DNA from: a virus
Reading direction: 5' to 3' (one strand)
IMG/VR virus record: IMGVR_UViG_3300028372_000049
Location: 1-22,965 of that record
DNA: 22,965 nucleotides
Shown: positions 1,884 through 14,477 of the stretch, one piece after another
How the letters are laid out: each line of letters opens with the position of its first letter
Numbering within the stretch: position 1 is the stretch's first letter
Program-made: the position numbers and the translations under genes
Notes under the pieces: generated by a model
The model's database searches: none
What the model was told of the DNA's origin: nothing
What the model saw: the letters and a program-made list of their open reading frames with translations, nothing else

Positions 1884-4325
1884 TCAGCCCTTCTGTTGAA
1901 TGCCCTTGAAGATTGAGTCGGCCCTGGGCTGCTCGCCGTCGATGATGCGCTCACTGGGGGTGTTGATTTTAGCCTCCAGCTCGCTTCGGTCGGCGAGGTT
2001 GAAGTGGTCGGCCGCGTAGAAGATGGCGTCCAGGTCGATGATGTAGCACGTCGGGCGCTTGTCATTGACCCTGGGGCGCTTGGTGCCTGCTGGGCTGATG
2101 GAGTCGAGCGCGTTTGAGAGCTGGGACTGAGTGGGCACCTTGAAGCTGTTGGTGAGCGTCTTCCACTTGTTGTGCAGGGTCTTCATGTGAACCAGGAACT
2201 CGCCGTCGCCGTAAGGCATCATGTCTGAGCGCGTGCCGCTGTCGATGTAGCTGACCAGTGCAATGAGCAGCTCCTGGTTGATACCCGTCTTGAAGTTGAA
2301 GGTCCTGATGAGTTCGCTGTCCCACCCCTCCACAAGGAACCTATCACCGGCCGTGACCTGACGGTTCTCAGCCAGCCACATGATGTGACGGGCGATGCCG
2401 CCACCGTCGACCCAGGCTTCTGTGTGGGCGCGGCCGCCAAGGCTCTCCAGGTAGGCGGCTGCCTTGGCGTCGGTCTTGATGTAGCCAATACGGCGCTTGA
2501 TGGCCTCTCTATCGTTCTCGGTGAGGTCCTCGCGCATCTTCAGGGCGTCGTCGTTGTTGGCCGTGATGAGCAGGCGGGGAGCACCAATGAGTGTGGCGTG
2601 AGGCTTGTACTTGCGGTTCAAGGACATCTGCGTGGTGCCAATGATACGCCGGAAGATGGAGCTGGCGTTGTCGCCGTAGAAGCCTGTGGGGATGGCCTCG
2701 TCGGCGAGAATCAGGGGGCAGTTGGCGATCTCCTCCTGGAAGCTCTCAGTAAGCGCAGAGTAGGGCGTGGGCGCTCGACCGTGCATACCTACGGCGATGC
2801 CTTCGGCGAGCATACCCTTGCCGATTGAGGGAGGGCCGTGCAGGTACAGGGCGCACACAGGGTCACCAAACCGAGGATAGACGGCCAGCCAGTCGAGCAG
2901 CTCGTCAGCCTTGGGGCCGCCGATGAGCCGCAGCCACTGGTCAATTTCAGGGTCATGCTCGGGCACCACGTCGGCCTGGATGCTGCCGACCCCCTCCAAC
3001 ATGGCCTGGCTGGACGGCTCGTAGTAGTTGCCCTCCTGGCCCATAACGAGCTGGACCTCGTGGACCGGCGTGCCGATGGCGTCGAGGAGGTTCTTGGTCT
3101 GGTGCAGGTTGCCCTTCTCGTTGACGTGGCGGCCGTCGGCCAGTGTCGGGCAGAGGTTGTTGATGGCCCACAGCAGTCCATCAGACTTGTACGGGGGCGT
3201 GTAGCTGGAGCTGCTTTCGTCCCAGACGTAGAAGTGGTTGGAGCTGGCGACGAAGGCAACCAGCGCGTGGGCGGCCTCTTGAGCGGGCATGTTGAGGGTG
3301 TCGGCCATCTCGTCGGCCACAAGCTTCTGGTCTTCTCCGAGCGGCATCCTGAATCCGGCCTGCTTGGCCTTGAAGGCGAGCGTGCGCAGGGTCACTGGCT
3401 TGCCGTAACGGGTGCCCGAGAAGCTGTCCCACTTGGTCCTGCAAGTGTCTGTGCCCTCGTACTTGGTGCCGGTGGAGCTCCACTGGTCCCACAGGTAGAA
3501 GGCGTCGTCGCCCCACTCATGCTTGAGGGCCATGCCCACGCGCACCCACTCCTCGTAGGTGATGTCGGCGTCGATGGCCGCGAGGGCATCTTCAACCCAG
3601 GGGTGGCTAGCAGGCCCGTACCCCCAGTGGTCTCCCTCCCCAGTGGACCCGTCTGAGGTCGGCATAGGTGATGAGGACATCTTGGCGAGGGCGTCGTCCA
3701 GCTCATCAGGTGCCCACGTCAGGGGCCGCATGGATGTGAACTCGCTGACTTCGGCCGTTGAGCGGTAGGCCCCATCGTCGGACTCGCGGCGCACGTTGGG
3801 CAGCCGGAACATCCTGGTCCAGTCTTTGCACTGCTCGTCGGCTGGGATGCCCAGGTCGCGCACATGTGCGATGAACTGGCTCAGGTAGCTGTCAGCGAGT
3901 CGTGCCGGAATGGGCACTTCCAGCGGCCATATAGCTCTCCAGCCGTGCTGGCTGAAATAGATGCCCGCCTGCTGGAGTAGGGGCTGAGTGCGGACCGTCT
4001 CGGCGAACTCGGCACGGTCGGCGTCAGTCCATTCACGATGCCCGGGGAGGTCGACGTCGATGGCGGCGTAGTTGAGCTGAGGCTCATAGCCGTCGCCCTG
4101 CTCTACCAGTGGTACCAGGGCATCCTTCTTGACCCTCAGGCCCTTGTCGGCTGCCTCGCTCAGGGCCGGGACGGTGTAGCAGACGAAGTGAGCGTCGGAC
4201 TGGTGGGCGTCCTCCATCGCGTGCATGAAGTCGGAGAGCGGCTGCATCTTGACGTCTTGCTGGTTTGAGCCGTTGAAGGCTGGGAAATACTTGTCGGGGA
4301 ATGCCAGTAGCTTTGGCAGCTCCAT
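1884..4325 (-). CDS. primase-helicase (AEP-type primase plus SF3/D5-like helicase)
   Basis: Probable bifunctional replication enzyme of 813 residues that makes primers and unwinds the fork. The N-terminal part matches archaeo-eukaryotic primase logic: IDVD (D90, D92) for metal binding, SQHG (125-128) and RMFRLPN (171-177). A middle segment with YEEWVRVGMALKHEWG resembles PriCT_2-type primase C-terminal domains. The helicase part has Walker A GPPSIGKG (497-504), Walker B LILADE (538-543) and a sensor-like LLITANND. This start is preferred because GAGG lies 5 nt upstream and the leader from the predicted promoter (about 43 nt) matches that of the nuclease gene. The alternative ATG at 4352 adds 9 residues. 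It is transcribed away from the repeat-rich region, as expected for a replication gene beside an origin. Confidence 0.9.
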   Translation of the reverse strand: MELPKLLAFPDKYFPAFNGSNQQDVKMQPLSDFMHAMEDAHQSDAHFVCYTVPALSEAADKGLRVKKDALVPLVEQGDGYEPQLNYAAIDVDLPGHREWTDADRAEFAETVRTQPLLQQAGIYFSQHGWRAIWPLEVPIPARLADSYLSQFIAHVRDLGIPADEQCKDWTRMFRLPNVRRESDDGAYRSTAEVSEFTSMRPLTWAPDELDDALAKMSSSPMPTSDGSTGEGDHWGYGPASHPWVEDALAAIDADITYEEWVRVGMALKHEWGDDAFYLWDQWSSTGTKYEGTDTCRTKWDSFSGTRYGKPVTLRTLAFKAKQAGFRMPLGEDQKLVADEMADTLNMPAQEAAHALVAFVASSNHFYVWDESSSSYTPPYKSDGLLWAINNLCPTLADGRHVNEKGNLHQTKNLLDAIGTPVHEVQLVMGQEGNYYEPSSQAMLEGVGSIQADVVPEHDPEIDQWLRLIGGPKADELLDWLAVYPRFGDPVCALYLHGPPSIGKGMLAEGIAVGMHGRAPTPYSALTESFQEEIANCPLILADEAIPTGFYGDNASSIFRRIIGTTQMSLNRKYKPHATLIGAPRLLITANNDDALKMREDLTENDREAIKRRIGYIKTDAKAAAYLESLGGRAHTEAWVDGGGIARHIMWLAENRQVTAGDRFLVEGWDSELIRTFNFKTGINQELLIALVSYIDSGTRSDMMPYGDGEFLVHMKTLHNKWKTLTNSFKVPTQSQLSNALDSISPAGTKRPRVNDKRPTCYIIDLDAIFYAADHFNLADRSELEAKINTPSERIIDGEQPRADSIFKGIQQKG

Positions 4326-4375
4326 GTTTACCTCATCTGTGAGTACGGCCATGTGGCCTCAGTGGTCCACGGTGA

Positions 4376-4404
4376 ACTGTAGCAGAAGAACTAGCAGCAC
4401 GCAA
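4376..4404 (-). promoter_or_regulatory. sigma-70-like promoter for the primase-helicase
   Basis: Minus strand: TTGCGT (4404-4399), 17-bp spacer, TACAGT (4381-4376). The -10 hexamer and following bases (CTACAGT then C, CC, TGGA) resemble the nuclease promoter at 1848-1876. The closest GAATGTCCC copy (4428-4436) is about 24 bp upstream of the -35, where an activator or repressor could act. Confidence 0.5.
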
Positions 4405-4414
4405 ATGATATTCC

Positions 4415-4801
4415 GAGGTTTCTGAGTGAATGTCCCAGATGTCCCTTGGTACATTCGTGAATGTCCCACCCCATCGGGGTCTGGAGGGGTCCACAGGGCG
4501 ATTTGTGCGTCCTAAGGCAATTGGGTCGGTACAAGTGCTCAAGTTTACCGCTGAAAACCTTGAAACCTTGTGAGGCATTTGCACACGTGAGACGGGCATT
4601 GCCACACACCTCAGAGGTTTCTGAGTGAATGTCCCAGATGTCCCTTGGTACATTCGTGAATGTCCCACCCCATCAGGGTCTGAGGGGGTCCGCAGGGCGA
4701 TTTGGGTGTCCTAAGGCAATTGGGTCGGTACAAGTGCTCAAGTTTACCGCTGAAAACCTTGAAACCTTGTAAGGCAATTCCACGCGTGAGAGGGCATTGC
4801 C
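4415..4801. repeat. tandem duplication, two copies with about 199-bp period
   Basis: Copy 1 (about 4415-4603) and copy 2 (about 4614-4801) share the same order: GAGGTTTCTGAGTGAATG, the GAATGTCCC palindrome, a GGGGTCC stretch, GGGCGATTTG, CCTAAGGCAATTGGGTCGG, CAAGTTTACCGC and GGCATTGCC. Only scattered substitutions and small indels separate them. A partial third copy of the first half starts near 4917 and merges into the module ending at 5314. Confidence 0.85.
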
Positions 4802-4932
4802 TTAGAGCGTCCTGTGGCAATTCCACGCGTGAGAAGGGCATTGCCTTAGAGCGTCCTGTGGCAATTCCACACGAGCCGGGTATTGCCTTAGAGCGTCCTG
4901 TGGCAATTCCACACGCCTCAGAGCGTCTGAGT
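4773..4932. repeat. four tandem 42-44 bp repeats (GGCAATTCC family)
   Basis: Units start at 4773, 4816, 4860 and 4902 (periods 43, 44 and 42). Each begins GGCAATTCCAC, most then have CGTGAG and GGGCATTGCC, and end TTAGAGCGTCCTGT; the last is truncated. GGCAAT and ATTGCC are inverted arms inside the units, and CACGCGTG is itself palindromic. Related single copies occur near 4574 and in the CCTAAGGCAATTGGG segments of both 199-bp repeats. Head-to-tail repeats of this size fit replication iterons or a partition site. Confidence 0.8.
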
Positions 4933-5123
4933 GAATGTCCCAGTGGTCCATGTAAATGTCCCAAGCGAGGGGGTGAATGTCCCAGAAGGTGTCTTGGTAC
5001 ATTCACGAATGTCCCACCCCATCAGGGCCTGAAGGGGTCCAAACGCCGATTTAGGGGGTCTTGGGACATTCACTTCTAATATCCTCTACCCTTTATAGAG
5101 TAAACCTTAGGTTTCGTATATAG

Positions 5124-5150
5124 ACGTGTGTGTATATGTGTGTGTATGTA
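5124..5150. other. 27-nt alternating purine-pyrimidine tract
   Basis: From ACGTGTGTG to TATGTA every base alternates purine and pyrimidine, mostly TG with some TA. Such tracts melt easily and can adopt Z-DNA under negative supercoiling. It is absent from the second module copy, so it is specific to the region beside the primase-helicase and could serve as an unwinding element. Confidence 0.6.
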
Positions 5151-5166
5151 GGTTTAAGGTTTTAAG

Positions 5167-5207
5167 TAGTAAACAATTACGCGAGGCCCCCCCACGGTAT
5201 GTACCAC
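5167..5207. repeat. 41-bp block identical to 14310-14350 (copy A)
   Basis: Runs from TAGTAAACAATTACGCG through a run of seven C to GGTATGTACCAC. All 41 bases match the other copy, while flanking sequence has diverged. The last part, GTATGTACC, is one base from the GAATGTACC motif. Confidence 0.9.
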
Positions 5208-5393
5208 TAGAATGAAAATCGCGGTCAGAAGGGCGTCAGGGGCCGATTTTAGTGAATGTCCCAGGGCCCAATTCACTGTCCCTGGTACATTCGTGGGACA
5301 TTCGTGGGACATTCTGGGTCATTTTGGGCCACAGGGCCGATATCCTGTCGATGCACTGCGTGGAGTGGTGGAGCTGTGGAGAGCGGCCGCCCT

Positions 5394-5437
5394 TATACTA
5401 AGAAATTAGTTGCGCCAAGCTCCATAGCTGTTATACT
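5394..5437 (+). promoter_or_regulatory. plus-strand promoter(s) for the regulator/terminase operon
   Basis: TTGCGC (5410-5415), a 16-bp spacer and TATACT (5432-5437) form a sigma-70-like promoter with a predicted start near 5444, about 20 nt before ATG 5465. A second TATACT at 5394-5399 has no clear -35 and may be another start. SD GAGG follows about 6 nt before the ATG. Confidence 0.5.
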
Positions 5438-5464
5438 TGAATCAGCGACTCAGAGAGGTAACCA

Positions 5465-5965
5465 ATGAAGGACACACAAGAGCAGACCCGAGAAGTAGTC
5501 GAGCCGTCCGAGACCGACAAGGAGCGGCGCGACCGCCTCAGGGCCAGACGGCTGTTATTCTTCGACCGCCCGGACTTCGAGAATATTGAGCAGTTCGCTG
5601 AGTTCGTCAGGCACTGCCGCGCCTCCTACGAGGACGGCCCGAGCATGGGCAGCACGACTCAAGCCTGTATTGAGATGGCGTTCGACGAGGACAGGTATGG
5701 TGTGGGCATCAGGACCTATCCCCAGGTCAAGCCCGTTGAGCCAGAGCCTCCCCTCCACCTGACCCACGACCACCTACTCCGGCTCGCTACGCGCAACGTC
5801 AGGCACCTGGGCACCTGGGTCGCTATTGACGTGGAGGGGCAGACCACCCGAGACAGGGCCGAAGCTCAGGGCCTGGGGAAATCTACCGTCCACGGACGTC
5901 TGACCAAGGCGCGTACGGCAATCATGGAGAAGCTCGCACGGGGAGGCCACGATGCTGCGAATTGA
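5465..5965 (+). CDS. sigma-70 region-4-like HTH regulator
   Basis: A protein of 166 residues, the first plus-strand gene after the control region. Residues from about 114 to 155 (LGTWVAIDVEG, then TTRDRAEAQGLGKSTVHGRL and TKARTAIMEKL) match the helix-turn-helix of sigma-70 region 4 and ArpU/RinA-like phage late regulators; GLGKSTVHGRL would be the recognition helix. The N-terminal half is charged and not recognised. Phage proteins of this type usually activate late or packaging genes, and its place just before the terminase operon fits. It is a reasonable candidate for the protein that reads the GAATGTCCC motifs, but nothing in the sequence proves that. GAGG precedes the ATG, and the 3' end overlaps the next gene by 14 bp. 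Confidence 0.75.
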   Translation: MKDTQEQTREVVEPSETDKERRDRLRARRLLFFDRPDFENIEQFAEFVRHCRASYEDGPSMGSTTQACIEMAFDEDRYGVGIRTYPQVKPVEPEPPLHLTHDHLLRLATRNVRHLGTWVAIDVEGQTTRDRAEAQGLGKSTVHGRLTKARTAIMEKLARGGHDAAN

Positions 5966-6302
5966 CACAATCAGCGCACTGGAGGTGCCTGGGTACGGCG
6001 TAGAGCTGGAGCTGGGCCTTGTATCTTTTGAGCACTACGTTATTGACGCCATGGGGCCTGAGGCTGCCGACACGCTCATGCGTCACCTGATGGGACAGTC
6101 CATCCACGAAGCCTCGGCCCTTGGCCTCTCCGTGGACCTGACGCGTCTCTACGTCCAGGTTCTGGACCCGACCCTTCACCCATGTGAGCAGACACTGCCG
6201 TCTGAGGCTCTCCTCAGCGGCGCGTTCCGAGTGGTCGCCCCGCTCGAAGACGACCCCCTTAAATGCCTGTACATCAGGTCACAAATCAAGGAGAAGTCAT
6301 GA
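5952..6302 (+). CDS. hypothetical phage protein
   Basis: A protein of 116 residues that I do not recognise. It has a strong SD (GGGGAGG, 5-6 nt before ATG), overlaps the upstream regulator by 14 bp and its TGA overlaps the next ATG as ATGA, so it is translationally coupled in a small operon. The N-terminal half alternates hydrophobic and acidic residues (GVELELGLVSFEHYVID) and looks like a small alpha/beta fold. No catalytic motif, signal peptide or membrane helix is visible. It may help take over host metabolism or modulate the neighbouring regulator; this is only guilt by position. Confidence 0.75.
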   Translation: MLRIDTISALEVPGYGVELELGLVSFEHYVIDAMGPEAADTLMRHLMGQSIHEASALGLSVDLTRLYVQVLDPTLHPCEQTLPSEALLSGAFRVVAPLEDDPLKCLYIRSQIKEKS

Positions 6303-6571
6303 CACGTTCGACGCAGGACACTAAGTACCAGGGCAGCGGCCCGACCAGCCCGAAGCACTATGAGCTGTTCGACGGCCTCAAGGAGACGCTTGACCTTATC
6401 GAGGACAGGCTCAGCCCAGAAGCCTACGCAGGCTACCTGGAGGGCAACCTCATCAAGTACCTGATGCGCCACAAACACAAGAACGGCCTGGAGGACCTCA
6501 AGAAGGCCCAGCGCTACCTGGAGTGGCTCATCTCGCACACACAGCAGCAGGGTGAACATGATGACCGTTGA
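6299..6571 (+). CDS. DUF3310-like protein
   Basis: A protein of 90 residues. The core HYELFDGL, then TLDLIEDR, GNLIKYLMRHKHKNG and EDLKKAQRYLEWLI follows the DUF3310 pattern (His-Tyr, a helix, G-N-x-IKY-x-x-R, then EDL-KA-x-YLE), a small all-helical family common in phages and sometimes loosely called nucleotide-kinase-related; its activity is not settled. The start at ATG 6299 is chosen because AAGGAG lies about 5 nt upstream and ATGA overlaps the preceding stop. An in-frame ATG at 6263 lies deep in the upstream gene and is unlikely. Confidence 0.75.
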   Translation: MTRSTQDTKYQGSGPTSPKHYELFDGLKETLDLIEDRLSPEAYAGYLEGNLIKYLMRHKHKNGLEDLKKAQRYLEWLISHTQQQGEHDDR

Positions 6572-6932
6572 ACAGCAGCTACAGAGCCTGATGATGGAGG
6601 GCGAGCAGTGGGCCTGGGTCGAGGGATTTGACCACACCTACGCCGTCACCACTGAGGGCCGCGTCTTCTCACTCAAGGCCGCAGAGCCCCGACAGCTCAG
6701 CGTCCACGACGGCGGCAAGGTCAAGCTGTACCGGCACGGCAAGCGGTACAGGCCCATGGTCTCCTGCCTGGTAGACCGCACGTTCTACCCTGAGGAGACA
6801 GTGGCCTACAGCTCAGCAGATCTGGCGTGGTACTTACGGACGCACTACGGCGGCCATGCGGTCGACACTGTAAGACAGTGGGCTACACGGGCCGCAAACC
6901 ACGTTTCTGACCCAATGGGTGAGGAGGACTGA
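6558..6932 (+). CDS. NUMOD4-like protein lacking an HNH domain
   Basis: A protein of 124 residues. Its N-terminal part reads like the NUMOD4 DNA-binding module of HNH homing endonucleases: W18-x-W-x-E-G-F then Y-A-V-T, G-R-V-F-S, a basic KVKLYRHGKRYRP stretch and a V-x-x-LV-x-x-TFYP segment. The His-Asn-His nuclease block that normally follows is absent. The C-terminal part (WYLRTHYGGHAVDTVRQWATRAANH) looks helical instead. It may be a domesticated DNA-binding remnant. ATG 6558 has AGGG 5 nt upstream; ATG 6561 is an equal choice. It overlaps the preceding gene by 14 bp. Confidence 0.65.
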   Translation: MMTVEQQLQSLMMEGEQWAWVEGFDHTYAVTTEGRVFSLKAAEPRQLSVHDGGKVKLYRHGKRYRPMVSCLVDRTFYPEETVAYSSADLAWYLRTHYGGHAVDTVRQWATRAANHVSDPMGEED

Positions 6933-7113
6933 AAATTAGGCCGGACATCTACCGGCCATTATTCGCCATGTATAAGTAGAGGGCGCGCTAGAGAGTGCCC
7001 AGGTGACAGCGGGCATTCACGCTTCACGCCCTCCACACTTCACTTCACCCACCAAGACACCCTCGTCAGCGTCTACCAGCTGCCGGGGGTGTTCTATTTC
7101 CCATGAGGCCGCC
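6933..7113 (+). promoter_or_regulatory. spacer before terminase genes, with a hairpin
   Basis: A 181-bp spacer. GGCCGG (6939-6944) and CCGGCC (6952-6957) form a 6-bp stem with a 7-nt loop, followed by ATTATT, a weak terminator-like or processing hairpin. TATAAG at 6971-6976 could be a -10, but no good -35 precedes it. The rest is C-rich leader with SD GAGG before ATG 7114. A GTG at 7003 is in frame with the terminase, but the extension is low-complexity and lacks an SD. Confidence 0.4.
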
Positions 7114-7623
7114 ATGCCCCAAAGCGCGAAACAACAGGCCGCAGAGCTGGCCCGCGAGGGGCGGCGCTTGAAGGCCATGGAACTCAAGCTCGAAGGCAAG
7201 ACCTTCCGGCACATCGCCGACCAGCTAGGCGTCAGTGTGGGCACAGCTCACGGCGACGTCCAAGCGTGCCTGTTGGAGCTGGTGGAGATGCGCCAAGACA
7301 CTACTGAGGAGTACGTAGAGCTGGAGACCGAGCGGCTCGAAGCTGACCGCGATGACCTCAACAGCCTGCTTGGTGCCCTGGCCCCTAACATCTCTCAGGG
7401 CTGCCACGACGCCATCGACAAGGCCATCAAGATTATCAACCAGCGGGTCAAGGTGTCTGAGAGCATTCGCAAGCTCAGGGGCCTGGACGCTCCCCAGCGC
7501 AATCAGCACACCGTCGTGACCGTATCCCCTGCGGACGCAGCCGAAGAAATCAACGACGCCTTCGGCCTTGACGTGGTGGAGGTTGTGGAGGTCGACGATG
7601 AGCAGGAAGACGCCACAGACTAA
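7114..7623 (+). CDS. terS: terminase small subunit
   Basis: A protein of 169 residues just before and overlapping the large subunit. Residues 29-49 (GKTFRHIADQLGVSVGTAHGD) form a clear helix-turn-helix, the usual DNA-recognition part of small terminases. A long charged helical segment follows and an acidic C-terminal tail (residues about 140-169) that would contact the large subunit. It recognises the packaging start site and stimulates the motor. ATG 7114 is chosen for the GAGG upstream. Confidence 0.8.
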   Translation: MPQSAKQQAAELAREGRRLKAMELKLEGKTFRHIADQLGVSVGTAHGDVQACLLELVEMRQDTTEEYVELETERLEADRDDLNSLLGALAPNISQGCHDAIDKAIKIINQRVKVSESIRKLRGLDAPQRNQHTVVTVSPADAAEEINDAFGLDVVEVVEVDDEQEDATD

Positions 7624-8971
7624 AGCCTCCATGGCCCAGTTCTGGCGGCCGTACCAGAAACGGTACATCTGCGACCAGGGCCGCCTTCAACTGTACTGCA
7701 AGAGCCGTCAGATCGGCATCTCTGAGGCCAGCAGCTTCAAGGGCGCACGAGAGGCCGCGACCAACAGACGCCGGGACGTGTACTTCGTCTCGACGAACTT
7801 CGCCAACGCCAAGGACCTCATCAGAAAGGCGAAGTGGTGGTTGCAGGTCATGGCGAAAATCCGGCCGAATCTGGCCCCTTCGCTCGCACTGGTCACGGAG
7901 AACGTGTCCATGCTGGAGCTGGCCAACGGCTCGCGGCTCATTGCGCTGCCCTGCAAGCCCGGGTCGGTACGGGGCAAGAGCGGCACCATCATCCTCGACG
8001 AGGCCGCGCACTATGAGAATGACATGGAGATGTACGCCGCTATTGCACCGGCCATCATCTCCCAGCCGGACCTCAGACTCATCCTGGTCTCCACGCCCTT
8101 CGGCCCTAACGGACTGTTCTACAAGGCGTGGACTGGCGAGCTGGGAGACGAGACAGACGAGATGCACCGTGCCGGACTGGCATGGAGTAGGCACGAAACG
8201 GACGTGTTTGGAGCGGTCGCTGACGGCTTCCCCGAAGAAGTGCTCTTGCTGGAGGACCAGTACCCTTCGGACATCTGGGCACAAGAGTTCCTGTGCCAGT
8301 TCATCTCGGACAGCACGCTGTACTTCAAGCACGCCCTGTTGAAGAAGGCGATGGCTGATGTGAGCGAGCCGGACACTCGCGACGCCAAGCGCGTCCTGGG
8401 CATCGACCTCGCCTCAGAGACCGACAAGAGCGTCTGGGTCGACATGGTCAAGGTCGGCGACAGCTACCACGTCCTGGACACTGGCGACATGTCAGCAGAC
8501 GACCGAGACAAGCCGCTGACGTACCCTGAGCAGTACGACGTACTGACCAAGAAAATCGCCAATACCGACTACTATCAGGTGGCCGTCGACGCGACCGGAG
8601 AGGGCAAGGGCCTGAGCCAGTGGCTGCAACGAGACTTTGGCTCAGGCAGAGTGGTGGGCGTCCACTTCACCAACCAGTGGAAGGCCAAGTACATCCCTCA
8701 GCTTAAGCTGGATATGGCGCGGTCGCGATTCCACATGCCCAATCACTCCAAGCTCAGGGCAGATTTCCAGAAAATCAAGCGCAAAGTGACCACAGCCAAC
8801 AACGAAATCTTCGCCGCTAGCAGGGACGCTGACGGCCACGCAGACGGCTTCTTCGCTGCGCTGCTGGGCTACTCCATGCTGTACCGGCCGCCAAAACCCA
8901 AGAGTAAGCCAAGGGCCAAGGCCCACAAGCCCAGCAATGCCTCGCTAGCCAAGAAGTACATGGGCTACTGA
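7598..8971 (+). CDS. terL: terminase large subunit (packaging ATPase/nuclease)
   Basis: A protein of 457 residues that pumps DNA into the prohead and cuts it. The ATPase P-loop is KSRQIGIS (35-42): the lysine comes before SRQ rather than after the last glycine, a deviant Walker A like that of lambda gpA. Walker B is ILDE (132-135), with a coupling-like VSTPFG segment. The RNase H-fold nuclease acids are likely D270 (GIDLAS), D331 (AVDATG) and D416 (HADGFFAAL). The overall pattern resembles Mu gp28/Terminase_6. ATG 7598 has GGAGG 7-8 nt upstream and overlaps terS by 26 bp. The C-terminus is Lys/Pro-rich and probably disordered. Confidence 0.92.
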   Translation: MSRKTPQTKASMAQFWRPYQKRYICDQGRLQLYCKSRQIGISEASSFKGAREAATNRRRDVYFVSTNFANAKDLIRKAKWWLQVMAKIRPNLAPSLALVTENVSMLELANGSRLIALPCKPGSVRGKSGTIILDEAAHYENDMEMYAAIAPAIISQPDLRLILVSTPFGPNGLFYKAWTGELGDETDEMHRAGLAWSRHETDVFGAVADGFPEEVLLLEDQYPSDIWAQEFLCQFISDSTLYFKHALLKKAMADVSEPDTRDAKRVLGIDLASETDKSVWVDMVKVGDSYHVLDTGDMSADDRDKPLTYPEQYDVLTKKIANTDYYQVAVDATGEGKGLSQWLQRDFGSGRVVGVHFTNQWKAKYIPQLKLDMARSRFHMPNHSKLRADFQKIKRKVTTANNEIFAASRDADGHADGFFAALLGYSMLYRPPKPKSKPRAKAHKPSNASLAKKYMGY

Positions 8972-9052
8972 GGCCACACGCCGGCGTAGCCAATCTGGCA
9001 CGGCACCCGTTTTGTACTCGGCCCTACTCACTACCACCTCCAGGAGCACGCC

Positions 9053-11668
9053 ATGGCCAACAAACTAGGCATCTACGAGCGCAACGGCGTCTTCCACATG
9101 GAGGCCAACGACTCGGTCGCTGAGACCGACGTGGCCACGCTGGAGAAGTACCTCGACCACAGTGACGCTGCCAAGAGCTTCTCCTTTGCTGATGATGGTG
9201 AAGGCGACAAAGGCGGCGTCTCGAACACCGAGGAGACCGGCACAGACGGCTGGTACTGGGCCAACGGCACGATCCACCAGAAGGACGCCAACTACAACTA
9301 CACGCCCATCAGGGCACGCGGCCAGAGGGGCAATCAAGGCCTGTTCTGGCAGATGTTCCTGGAGAGCGAGCAGTATAGGCGCTCATGGAAGGACCAATAC
9401 GATAACCTGCGTCAAGGCCACTGGGCCGTTGAGCTTCCCCAGGACGGCATCGACGACCTGACGGATGCCCAGCTCACCCAGCTCGAAGAACAGCGTAAGT
9501 GGACCGAGCAGGCCATCTTTGGCATCGACGGCGGCTGGTCGAAGTTTGTCCACGACGCCCTCTACTTCCTTATCGGCGGCTTCTCGGTCTTCGAGACCGT
9601 CTACTACGCGCCGACAGCAGACAATCCCTACGCCATCAGGAAGATGGCTTTCAGGATGTGCTCCTCGGTCAACAAGTGGCTGCTCGACGAGCATGAGCGT
9701 GAGCTGCTGGGGGTGGAATTCGCCCGACCATCGACCGGGGAGAAATACAGCCTCCCGGCGTCGAGCCTGATGCTCATCAGCTACAACGCCTTCGGCAATG
9801 ACTTCGAGGGCAATTCACCCATCCGAGCGGCCGTCCAGTGGATTAAAGCCAAGCAGCTCTTTGCCAAGCTGGAGATGATTGCGGCCGAGAAGTACGGCGT
9901 GCCCATCCTGACGATCCAGAAGGACCTCCAGGGCGACAACTACCCTGACCCCAAGGAGCAGGCCGAACTGGTCTACCTCCTCGACCGTATGAAGGCAGAG
10001 GACAACCCCGTTATTGAGCTGCCCGCTGGCCAGCAGATGGCCATGCTCAGCCCTGAGGGCAACGTCCCAGATTTCACCAGTCAGAAGAGCTACTGCGACA
10101 ACCAGATTAGCCTGCTGCTCAAGAGCGACGGCAATCAGGTCGGCACTCGCGACGTAGGCACACAGGCCCTCGCCGAGACCAAGAAGGACACCCTTGACGA
10201 GTCGGCCGACTCCATCGCGTTCTACATCACTGAGGCCATCAACGGACACAACGGCACCGAGCACACTGGCGTCATCAAGAAGATGGTGGACGCCAAGTTC
10301 GGCGGCCCTATCGCCCCGGGCCTGTACCCTGAGCTGACGTTCTCCAGGGCCAAGGACACCCGAGACGGTGCGTGGCTCGGAGGCGTGGCAACGGCCAAGG
10401 AGAAGGGGCTGCTGACGTGGCGCTTCGGCGACGAGAAGAACGTGCGTGACTACCTCAACCTAGACCCTATCACCGAGGACGAATGGCAAGAGGCGCAGGA
10501 GGAGAAATCGGCCGTCCACAAGGCTGTTTCAGAGGGAGGTGATTCCCCATCTTCGTCGACCCCTAACCAGGGAGGCGAGCAGGACCCTGAGCAAGAAGAC
10601 CCAGAGGACGACGAGGTCGAGGATTTTAACGCGGCCGAGTCGGACAACGGGCTATACCACTTCGGCTCGGCCTGCACAGAAGACGACCACGAGCACACAT
10701 ACCAGCTCGCCGATGATGGAGTGGACGCCCACGCCAACGTCGACTACGAGCGCATGGCTGAATGGCTCGACAATCAAGACGCCATCATGGCCAAGGCCCT
10801 GAGCAAGGTCACCAAAGACCACAGGGACGACTGGGTCAAGAAGACCGAGGGCGTCACCGACCCTGACACGCTGCGCTCCATCAAGCGGTCGATGCGACGG
10901 CGATGGGAAGCGAACTACAGGGAGGCTGTTGAGGGCGAGCTTTTCAGGAACTACCTGAGAGGTGCTGGAGAGGTGCTGGCAGAAGCTGGCGTCCTCGACG
11001 AGGTGAACATCCCCTCGACCCCCAGCGACATCGACATCCAGCGGCTCAGTCTGGGCCGCCCGCCTGCGGAAATCCAGAAGACGGTCACGGCCGTCGCCGA
11101 CGACATCGCTGAGCACACGTACAACGTCACTCAGCATTATCTGACTCAGCAGGGTGTCGAGGAGGCCAACGGACGGCCCGAGCGCAAGGATCTGGACATT
11201 CCCACGTCCAGTGCACTGGAGAAGAACGTCGTCTCCATGTACTCGCCAAGGTCCTTCCAAGAGGGCCGCGACAAGGTCATTCAAGAGGTCTACGACGAGA
11301 GCCATCTGAGAGGAGTGGAGGGCGAAATTGTCGCCGAACGCTCAGCCGTGATGGACGGGGAAACCTGCTCGCCGTGCCGCAAGCACAACGGCAAGCGCGC
11401 CCTGGTCGGCAGCTCGACCTACTCGATGTACTCGCCGCCGAACTTCTGCAAGGGGAAAGCCCGATGCCGCTGTATCTGGGCCTACATCCACCCCGACGAG
11501 GAAGGCTACCAGAAGATGCTCCAGGAGCTGCGTGATGGATTCTCACACGCATTCAGCCCGACCACCCAGGTCTCTGACCACACTCCGGTACTGATTCTAC
11601 TGGCCGAAATGAACCACGAAGACGGCCTAGTCGCTGTCTTTGGCAAGGAGGAGCCGCATGATTTTTGA
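9053..11668 (+). CDS. portal protein (DUF935-like) fused to MuF-type minor head protein
   Basis: A protein of 871 residues. The first 480 or so residues match the Mu gp29/DUF935 portal type: an SEQYRRSWKDQ segment, a region around GGFSVFETVYY, and an ISYNAFGNDFEG region. An acidic low-complexity linker (about 490-535) follows. The C-terminal third resembles the MuF/gp7 head morphogenesis domain, ending in a DGETCSPCRKHNG motif (C772, C775), then C799, C805 and C807 in RCRCIW. These two proteins are usually separate neighbouring genes; here they form one chain. As portal it would form the 12-mer at the DNA-entry vertex, each subunit carrying a minor head protein. AGGAG precedes the ATG. The 3' end overlaps the protease start. 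Confidence 0.88.
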   Translation: MANKLGIYERNGVFHMEANDSVAETDVATLEKYLDHSDAAKSFSFADDGEGDKGGVSNTEETGTDGWYWANGTIHQKDANYNYTPIRARGQRGNQGLFWQMFLESEQYRRSWKDQYDNLRQGHWAVELPQDGIDDLTDAQLTQLEEQRKWTEQAIFGIDGGWSKFVHDALYFLIGGFSVFETVYYAPTADNPYAIRKMAFRMCSSVNKWLLDEHERELLGVEFARPSTGEKYSLPASSLMLISYNAFGNDFEGNSPIRAAVQWIKAKQLFAKLEMIAAEKYGVPILTIQKDLQGDNYPDPKEQAELVYLLDRMKAEDNPVIELPAGQQMAMLSPEGNVPDFTSQKSYCDNQISLLLKSDGNQVGTRDVGTQALAETKKDTLDESADSIAFYITEAINGHNGTEHTGVIKKMVDAKFGGPIAPGLYPELTFSRAKDTRDGAWLGGVATAKEKGLLTWRFGDEKNVRDYLNLDPITEDEWQEAQEEKSAVHKAVSEGGDSPSSSTPNQGGEQDPEQEDPEDDEVEDFNAAESDNGLYHFGSACTEDDHEHTYQLADDGVDAHANVDYERMAEWLDNQDAIMAKALSKVTKDHRDDWVKKTEGVTDPDTLRSIKRSMRRRWEANYREAVEGELFRNYLRGAGEVLAEAGVLDEVNIPSTPSDIDIQRLSLGRPPAEIQKTVTAVADDIAEHTYNVTQHYLTQQGVEEANGRPERKDLDIPTSSALEKNVVSMYSPRSFQEGRDKVIQEVYDESHLRGVEGEIVAERSAVMDGETCSPCRKHNGKRALVGSSTYSMYSPPNFCKGKARCRCIWAYIHPDEEGYQKMLQELRDGFSHAFSPTTQVSDHTPVLILLAEMNHEDGLVAVFGKEEPHDF

Positions 11669-14123: not shown

Positions 14124-14183
14124 TCGAGAGCTGTGAGGGCCTAAGTGAATGTCCCGGGACACCCCTGGGACATTCGCGAATGT

Positions 14184-14199
14184 ACCACTAAATAGTGGT
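14184..14199. repeat. 16-bp palindrome beside a motif
   Basis: ACCACTA-AA-TAGTGGT: 7-bp arms and a 2-bp centre, overlapping the end of the GAATGTACC copy at 14178. No equivalent palindrome is at this place in copy A. Confidence 0.5.
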
Positions 14200-14309
14200 G
14201 CTGTGGCCCTCACGGCCCGATTATTGGCCCCTGGTACACTGGGACACCGTTTTCTGACCCTTTATGGACTAAACCTAACCTTAGGTATTACGCCTTATAA
14301 GGTTTGGGA

Positions 14310-14350
14310 TAGTAAACAATTACGCGAGGCCCCCCCACGGTATGTACCAC
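14310..14350. repeat. 41-bp block identical to 5167-5207 (copy B)
   Basis: Starts TAGTAAACAATTACGCG, includes seven C in a row and ends GGTATGTACCAC. It is the only long stretch in the two modules without a single difference, so it is probably under direct selection. Confidence 0.9.
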
Positions 14351-14477
14351 CAGCCTGAAAATCGGCGCGTGGAGGGGCCCAGAGGCCGATTTTAGAGAAT
14401 GTCCCACATCGAAGATCAGTGTCCCTGGTACATTCGTGGGACATTCAGGACCACCCACCCCCTCAAGAGGCAAGCCC

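Follow-up and report, generated by a model that had tools for sequence, protein, structure and literature searches.

Two intergenic regions of a viral DNA record carry the same 41-bp sequence, identical at every position, which raises the question of what such a block does and whether it acts alone. The window, that is, the whole stretch of DNA analyzed, is the entire IMG/VR record IMGVR_UViG_3300028372_000049 (22,965 bases, positions 1-22,965; overall GC content, 60.6%). Because genes run off both ends, the window is probably part of a larger genome. Its gene content is that of a tailed virus. The minus strand encodes a PD-(D/E)XK nuclease and a primase-helicase, and the plus strand carries, in this order, genes for a 166-aa HTH-like protein, DUF3310, NUMOD4/HNH, terS, terL, a Mu-type portal and a protease-like ORF, followed by the capsid genes, the tail genes and the tape measure. 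The majority of the proteins are acid-rich, which hints at a halophilic host, although as a host candidate only. Inside the nuclease gene, an 18-bp tandem repeat (GGTGCTGGTGCTGGGGCC) at 724-790 encodes an Ala-Pro stretch.

The 41-bp block within a duplicated segment

As originally predicted, the two copies are identical; they form a maximal exact repeat, with both flanking bases differing. The block and the longer homology in which it is embedded are the following:

5167..5207, plus strand: 41-bp identical block, copy 1, with a GTAA-N4-TTAC palindrome, a C7 run and a GGTA-TG-TACC palindrome/degenerate decamer
14310..14350, plus strand: 41-bp identical block, copy 2, identical to copy 1
5155..5303, plus strand: homologous segment of module 1, 83% identical, ungapped, to 14298-14446
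14298..14446, plus strand: homologous segment of module 2, 83% identical, ungapped, to 5155-5303

The longest exact repeat in order-2 Markov versions of the window measured 13-18 bp, and no further copy of the block with up to 3 mismatches was found. The sequence AACAATTACGCG and the seven consecutive C singled out in the original prediction are indeed present within the block, the C7 run occurring twice in the whole window, once per block. In the window, GTAA-N4-TTAC, C7 and GGTA-TG-TACC are all confined to the two blocks; some of these elements, and of those in the AT-rich stretches described below, were chosen after viewing the sequence, and their uniqueness is descriptive rather than a test. 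The 3' end of the block is, as had been noticed, one mismatch away from the array motif (GTATGTACCA versus GAATGTMCCA), and it doubles as the left-hand boundary of a less strict repeat unit (GAATGTMCCAC ... GCCGATTT) that is present in several copies in both regions.

In the 149-bp ungapped alignment of the two modules, 123 positions are identical and 26 are mismatched, with runs of identity of 8, 41, 2, 9, 1, 1, 4, 3, 12, 10, 1, 1, 3 and 27 bp. When the 26 mismatches were shuffled, a run of at least 41 bp arose in 0.3% of the cases (p ~0.003), and a run of this length is thus unlikely under random scatter of mismatches. The run list and the shuffling result together show that the 41 bp are the longest among several conserved runs. 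The second, of 27 bp (TGTCCCTGGTACATTCGTGGGACATTC), coincides with sites of the decamer described below, and the shorter runs of 12 and 10 bp fall on the GGCCGATTTTAG element and on a decamer. Both blocks can be read in a frame that ends at the same TGA and, in module 2, gives 69 aa; outside the block no obvious codon pattern was apparent by eye, and a coding role was rejected.

Decamer arrays and AT-rich stretches

The block is one component of a larger module present twice, in intergenic regions 9.1 kb apart and in identical orientation. Each module comprises a decamer triplet, an AT-rich stretch, the 41-bp block and decamers at fixed offsets. The decamer TGGKACATTC occurs in 20 exact copies in the window, against 0.04 expected, and all 20 lie within the intergenic regions 4353-5464 and 14124-14477. 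Only exact copies were counted; a one-mismatch listing, which missed known degenerate sites, was left out of the counts. The arrays and associated repeats (decamer orientations given as > and <) are:

4428..5071, unstranded: left decamer array of module 1, with triplets > < > at 4428/4447/4459, 4627/4646/4658 and 4975/4995/5007, plus decamers at 4933 and 5062
14147..14187, unstranded: left decamer triplet of module 2, at 14147 (one mismatch), 14166 and 14178, with offsets 19/12 as in module 1
5254..5314, unstranded: right decamer set of module 1, > 5254, < 5283, < 5294, < 5305, 11-bp phased
14397..14446, unstranded: right decamer set of module 2, > 14397, < 14426, < 14437, with offsets 29/11 as in module 1
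4412..4595, plus strand: first 184-bp direct repeat, 93% identical to the second, 199 bp apart, with one decamer triplet
4611..4794, plus strand: second 184-bp direct repeat, with one decamer triplet
4787..4914, plus strand: three tandem 42-nt repeats, GGCATTGCC...GGCAATTCC

To the left, the triplet geometry (> 19-20 < 12 >) is found three times in module 1 and once in module 2, there with a degenerate first member at 14147. To the right of both blocks, the arrangement > 29 < 11 < has offsets identical between the modules. The < 12 > pair amounts to a 20-bp palindrome, and the 11-bp tandem spacing places decamers on the same face of the helix. The 42-nt tandem repeats (GGCATTGCC / GGCAATTCC) are related to TAAGGCAATT of the adjoining 184-bp repeats.

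No other 80-bp stretches of the window are as low in GC as the two that touch the blocks, between the left and right arrays:

5094..5173, unstranded: AT-rich stretch of module 1, 31% GC (window minimum), with CCTTAGG and inverted arms AACCTTA (5103) / TAAGGTT (5155)
14244..14323, unstranded: AT-rich stretch of module 2, 37.5% GC (second lowest in the window), with arms AACCTTA (14277) / TAAGGTT (14298)

The arms, absent elsewhere in the window, are 52 bp apart in module 1 and 21 bp in module 2, that is, 31 bp closer. Between the arms of module 1, at 5110-5150, is a GT-rich simple repeat that is missing from module 2 and may explain much of this difference.

A cis-acting signal common to the two modules is well supported by the fixed site geometry, the AT-rich neighborhood and the noncoding location. 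Furthermore, the position of the arrays on either side of an AT-rich element speaks for a DNA complex of several proteins. It is quite improbable that the modules simply reflect a fairly recent duplication homogenised by recombination, in which the 41 bp would have no special role. Such an event would account for 149 bp aligning free of gaps, gene conversion can leave exact tracts, and a single genome is at hand; however, the conserved runs coincide with decamer sites, the AT-rich arms are retained despite the 31-bp difference in spacing, and the length of the longest run is not what scattered mismatches would be expected to leave.

Only a little less doubtful is a repressor operator array of the immunity or stoperator type, with the block conserved merely as one more operator beside a promoter. 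The numerous, dispersed copies of a single short palindrome in noncoding DNA would suit it, and the stoperators of Cluster A mycobacteriophages are a precedent: these are asymmetric 13-bp sites found genome-wide, mostly in one orientation relative to transcription (PMC6550527), and they resemble the predicted sites of the window in that a short binding site is repeated many times within the genome of one phage. The window sites, however, are restricted to two regions rather than scattered and point in either direction, and among the window genes none for a repressor or integrase was identified.

Of the roles originally proposed for the block, a processing signal is without support, because no RNA fold is common to both copies and there was no Rfam match; an RNA element was set aside on the same grounds. 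A packaging site is unlikely and was likewise dismissed, since there are two copies and neither is at terS. A phage-specific promoter, also proposed, keeps part of its force and is considered below.

Possible replication origin or late-gene control

Two genes next to module 1 bear on its function:

1884..4352, minus strand: primase-helicase gene (PriCT_2 + DUF5906), divergent from module 1, candidate initiator
5465..5965, plus strand: gene for the 166-aa protein, with a weak sigma region-4-like HTH at residues 118-160, candidate late regulator

Tentatively, we read the modules as a paired replication origin resembling ori and crr of phage P4, in which they would supply a DNA-binding protein of the phage with arrays to bind and with elements that melt. 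The decamers, as 20-bp palindrome pairs or 11-bp stacks, would serve as binding sites for a single phage protein, with the neighboring primase-helicase or a partner as the likeliest candidate. The bound protein would oligomerise on both sides and open, at the block, the AT-rich stretch; replication would start there. On the model of the P4 pair, the principal origin region would be module 1, and module 2 would add a second site that acts in cis in replication.

In the P4 record, 8-bp repeats of 'ori type 1' point both ways, with a spacing of 9-11 bp where they are in tandem, and occupy two regions ~5 kb apart, one of them adjoining the alpha gene and built of two 120-bp direct repeats. Thus, the window and P4 both have short repeats in both orientations in two separated noncoding cis regions, one of which adjoins a primase-helicase gene and contains two long direct repeats (2 x 120 bp in P4; 2 x 184 bp in module 1, with one triplet each). 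The DUF5906 helicase domain is also common to both, at residues 504-612 of the window primase-helicase (E 7e-9) and 500-608 of P4 alpha (E 2.5e-9). Outside DUF5906, similarity between the two proteins was not significant, and single-sequence hhalign of the primase C-termini, a comparison of low power, gave no signal. There are also differences. The window decamer, TGGKACATTC, does not match the P4 iteron consensus CTGTTCACC; P4 alpha has Toprim, Zn-ribbon, D5_N and Pox_D5 matches, none of which was detected in the window primase; ori and crr share short repeats only, with no exact repeat of at least 18 bp, whereas the window modules share 149 bp; and the second region of the window sits inside the structural gene block. 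Because the repeat sequence and several alpha domains differ, we would speak of resemblance to a P4-type origin rather than membership of that class. The cumulative GC-skew extreme near 5.7 kb tracks gene direction and is uninformative on the origin.

The paired-origin reading is slightly preferred over a duplicated late-gene control region, which is almost as likely. Under the latter, the block would be a phage-specific promoter core and the decamers operators, with the operon for packaging and head driven by module 1 and that for head completion and tail by module 2, under a regulator such as the 166-aa HTH protein. This reading is nearly as good because the modules precede plus-strand gene blocks and the first gene past module 1 encodes a weak HTH. 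Indeed, both copies are equally oriented ahead of such blocks, regulator-terS-terL-portal-capsid past module 1 and, past module 2, genes that lead up to the tail tube and tape measure, an arrangement that a promoter would also explain and that counts against an origin. The gene for the 166-aa protein, with its weak sigma region-4-like match (best E 0.0076), lies, as in late activators, just upstream of terS, and the annotated late activator of phage Persinger gives a similarly weak HTH match; palindromic 20-bp sites, moreover, fit a dimeric regulator.

Known late switches offer partial parallels. In P2, Ogr acts at one site type (TGT-N12-ACA) ahead of several late operons, head and tail included, with four late promoters in all (PMC3931495). 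One site type before late operons is a feature common to P2 and the window, but the window has several sites on both sides of the core, and family scans of the window proteins gave no match to an Ogr-like zinc protein. In Gram-positive phages, RinA/Ltr-type regulators, small proteins encoded near the packaging genes, control late transcription (PMC13123087). The 166-aa candidate is similarly small and similarly placed; those phages, however, make one late transcript from one promoter, and the window protein has no sequence family match.

Several features fit late control poorly. Since the decamers lie on both sides of the block, they would fall within the transcribed leader. The following start codon is 258 bp (module 1) or 128 bp (module 2) away from the block, and the HTH is weakly assigned. 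No sigma-70-like promoter (TTGACA/TATAAT-like hexamers at -35/-10) is recognisable in either intergenic region, which favors the origin reading, and the decamers that follow the block fit better with an origin or a repressor array than with a simple promoter.

Relatives and implications

The database search proposed for the 41-mer was run on IMG/VR, where exact and degenerate queries returned nothing or chance matches in unrelated context, and no relative carrying the block was found. Likewise, IMG/VR gave no match to the decamer in its palindromic or its tandem pattern, the capsid, primase and 166-aa proteins used as queries yielded no relatives there, and BLAST of the module 1 intergenic region against phage and plasmid records gave nothing similar. 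The sole near relative, L003 (98% identical), spans window positions 6274-10355 and includes neither module. Between its terL and portal genes (L003 2707-2780) is a complete tRNA-Thr(TGT), of which the window retains a copy without the 3' part (8975-9025); ARAGORN detects no tRNA in the window. Two distant terminase relatives (L004, L005) scanned for repeats had no comparable modules.

In GTDB genomes, the decamer palindrome had 65 matching stretches, which were judged unrelated, being mostly hairpin repeats of rumen Clostridia with different flanks. Most of these loci (L010-L074), from rumen and gut Clostridia, contain an abundant hairpin repeat, GGGACATTCNTGAATGTCCC, often beside another hairpin and with GTAG/CTAC on its flanks; it bears no relation to the window.

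A fuller picture, which we consider rather unlikely as a whole, is that of a full-size tailed virus, from a lineage not yet described, whose P4-like origin has two sites, the second of them between capsid and tail genes, and relies on a decamer peculiar to this virus and on an identical 41-bp core for opening. The modules represent a sharply defined cis-element, a core with predicted binding sites at fixed offsets, in a virus with hardly any database relatives. This element bears on whether paired origin sites are also in use among tailed phages other than the P4 group or, on the late-control reading, on a late-gene switch.
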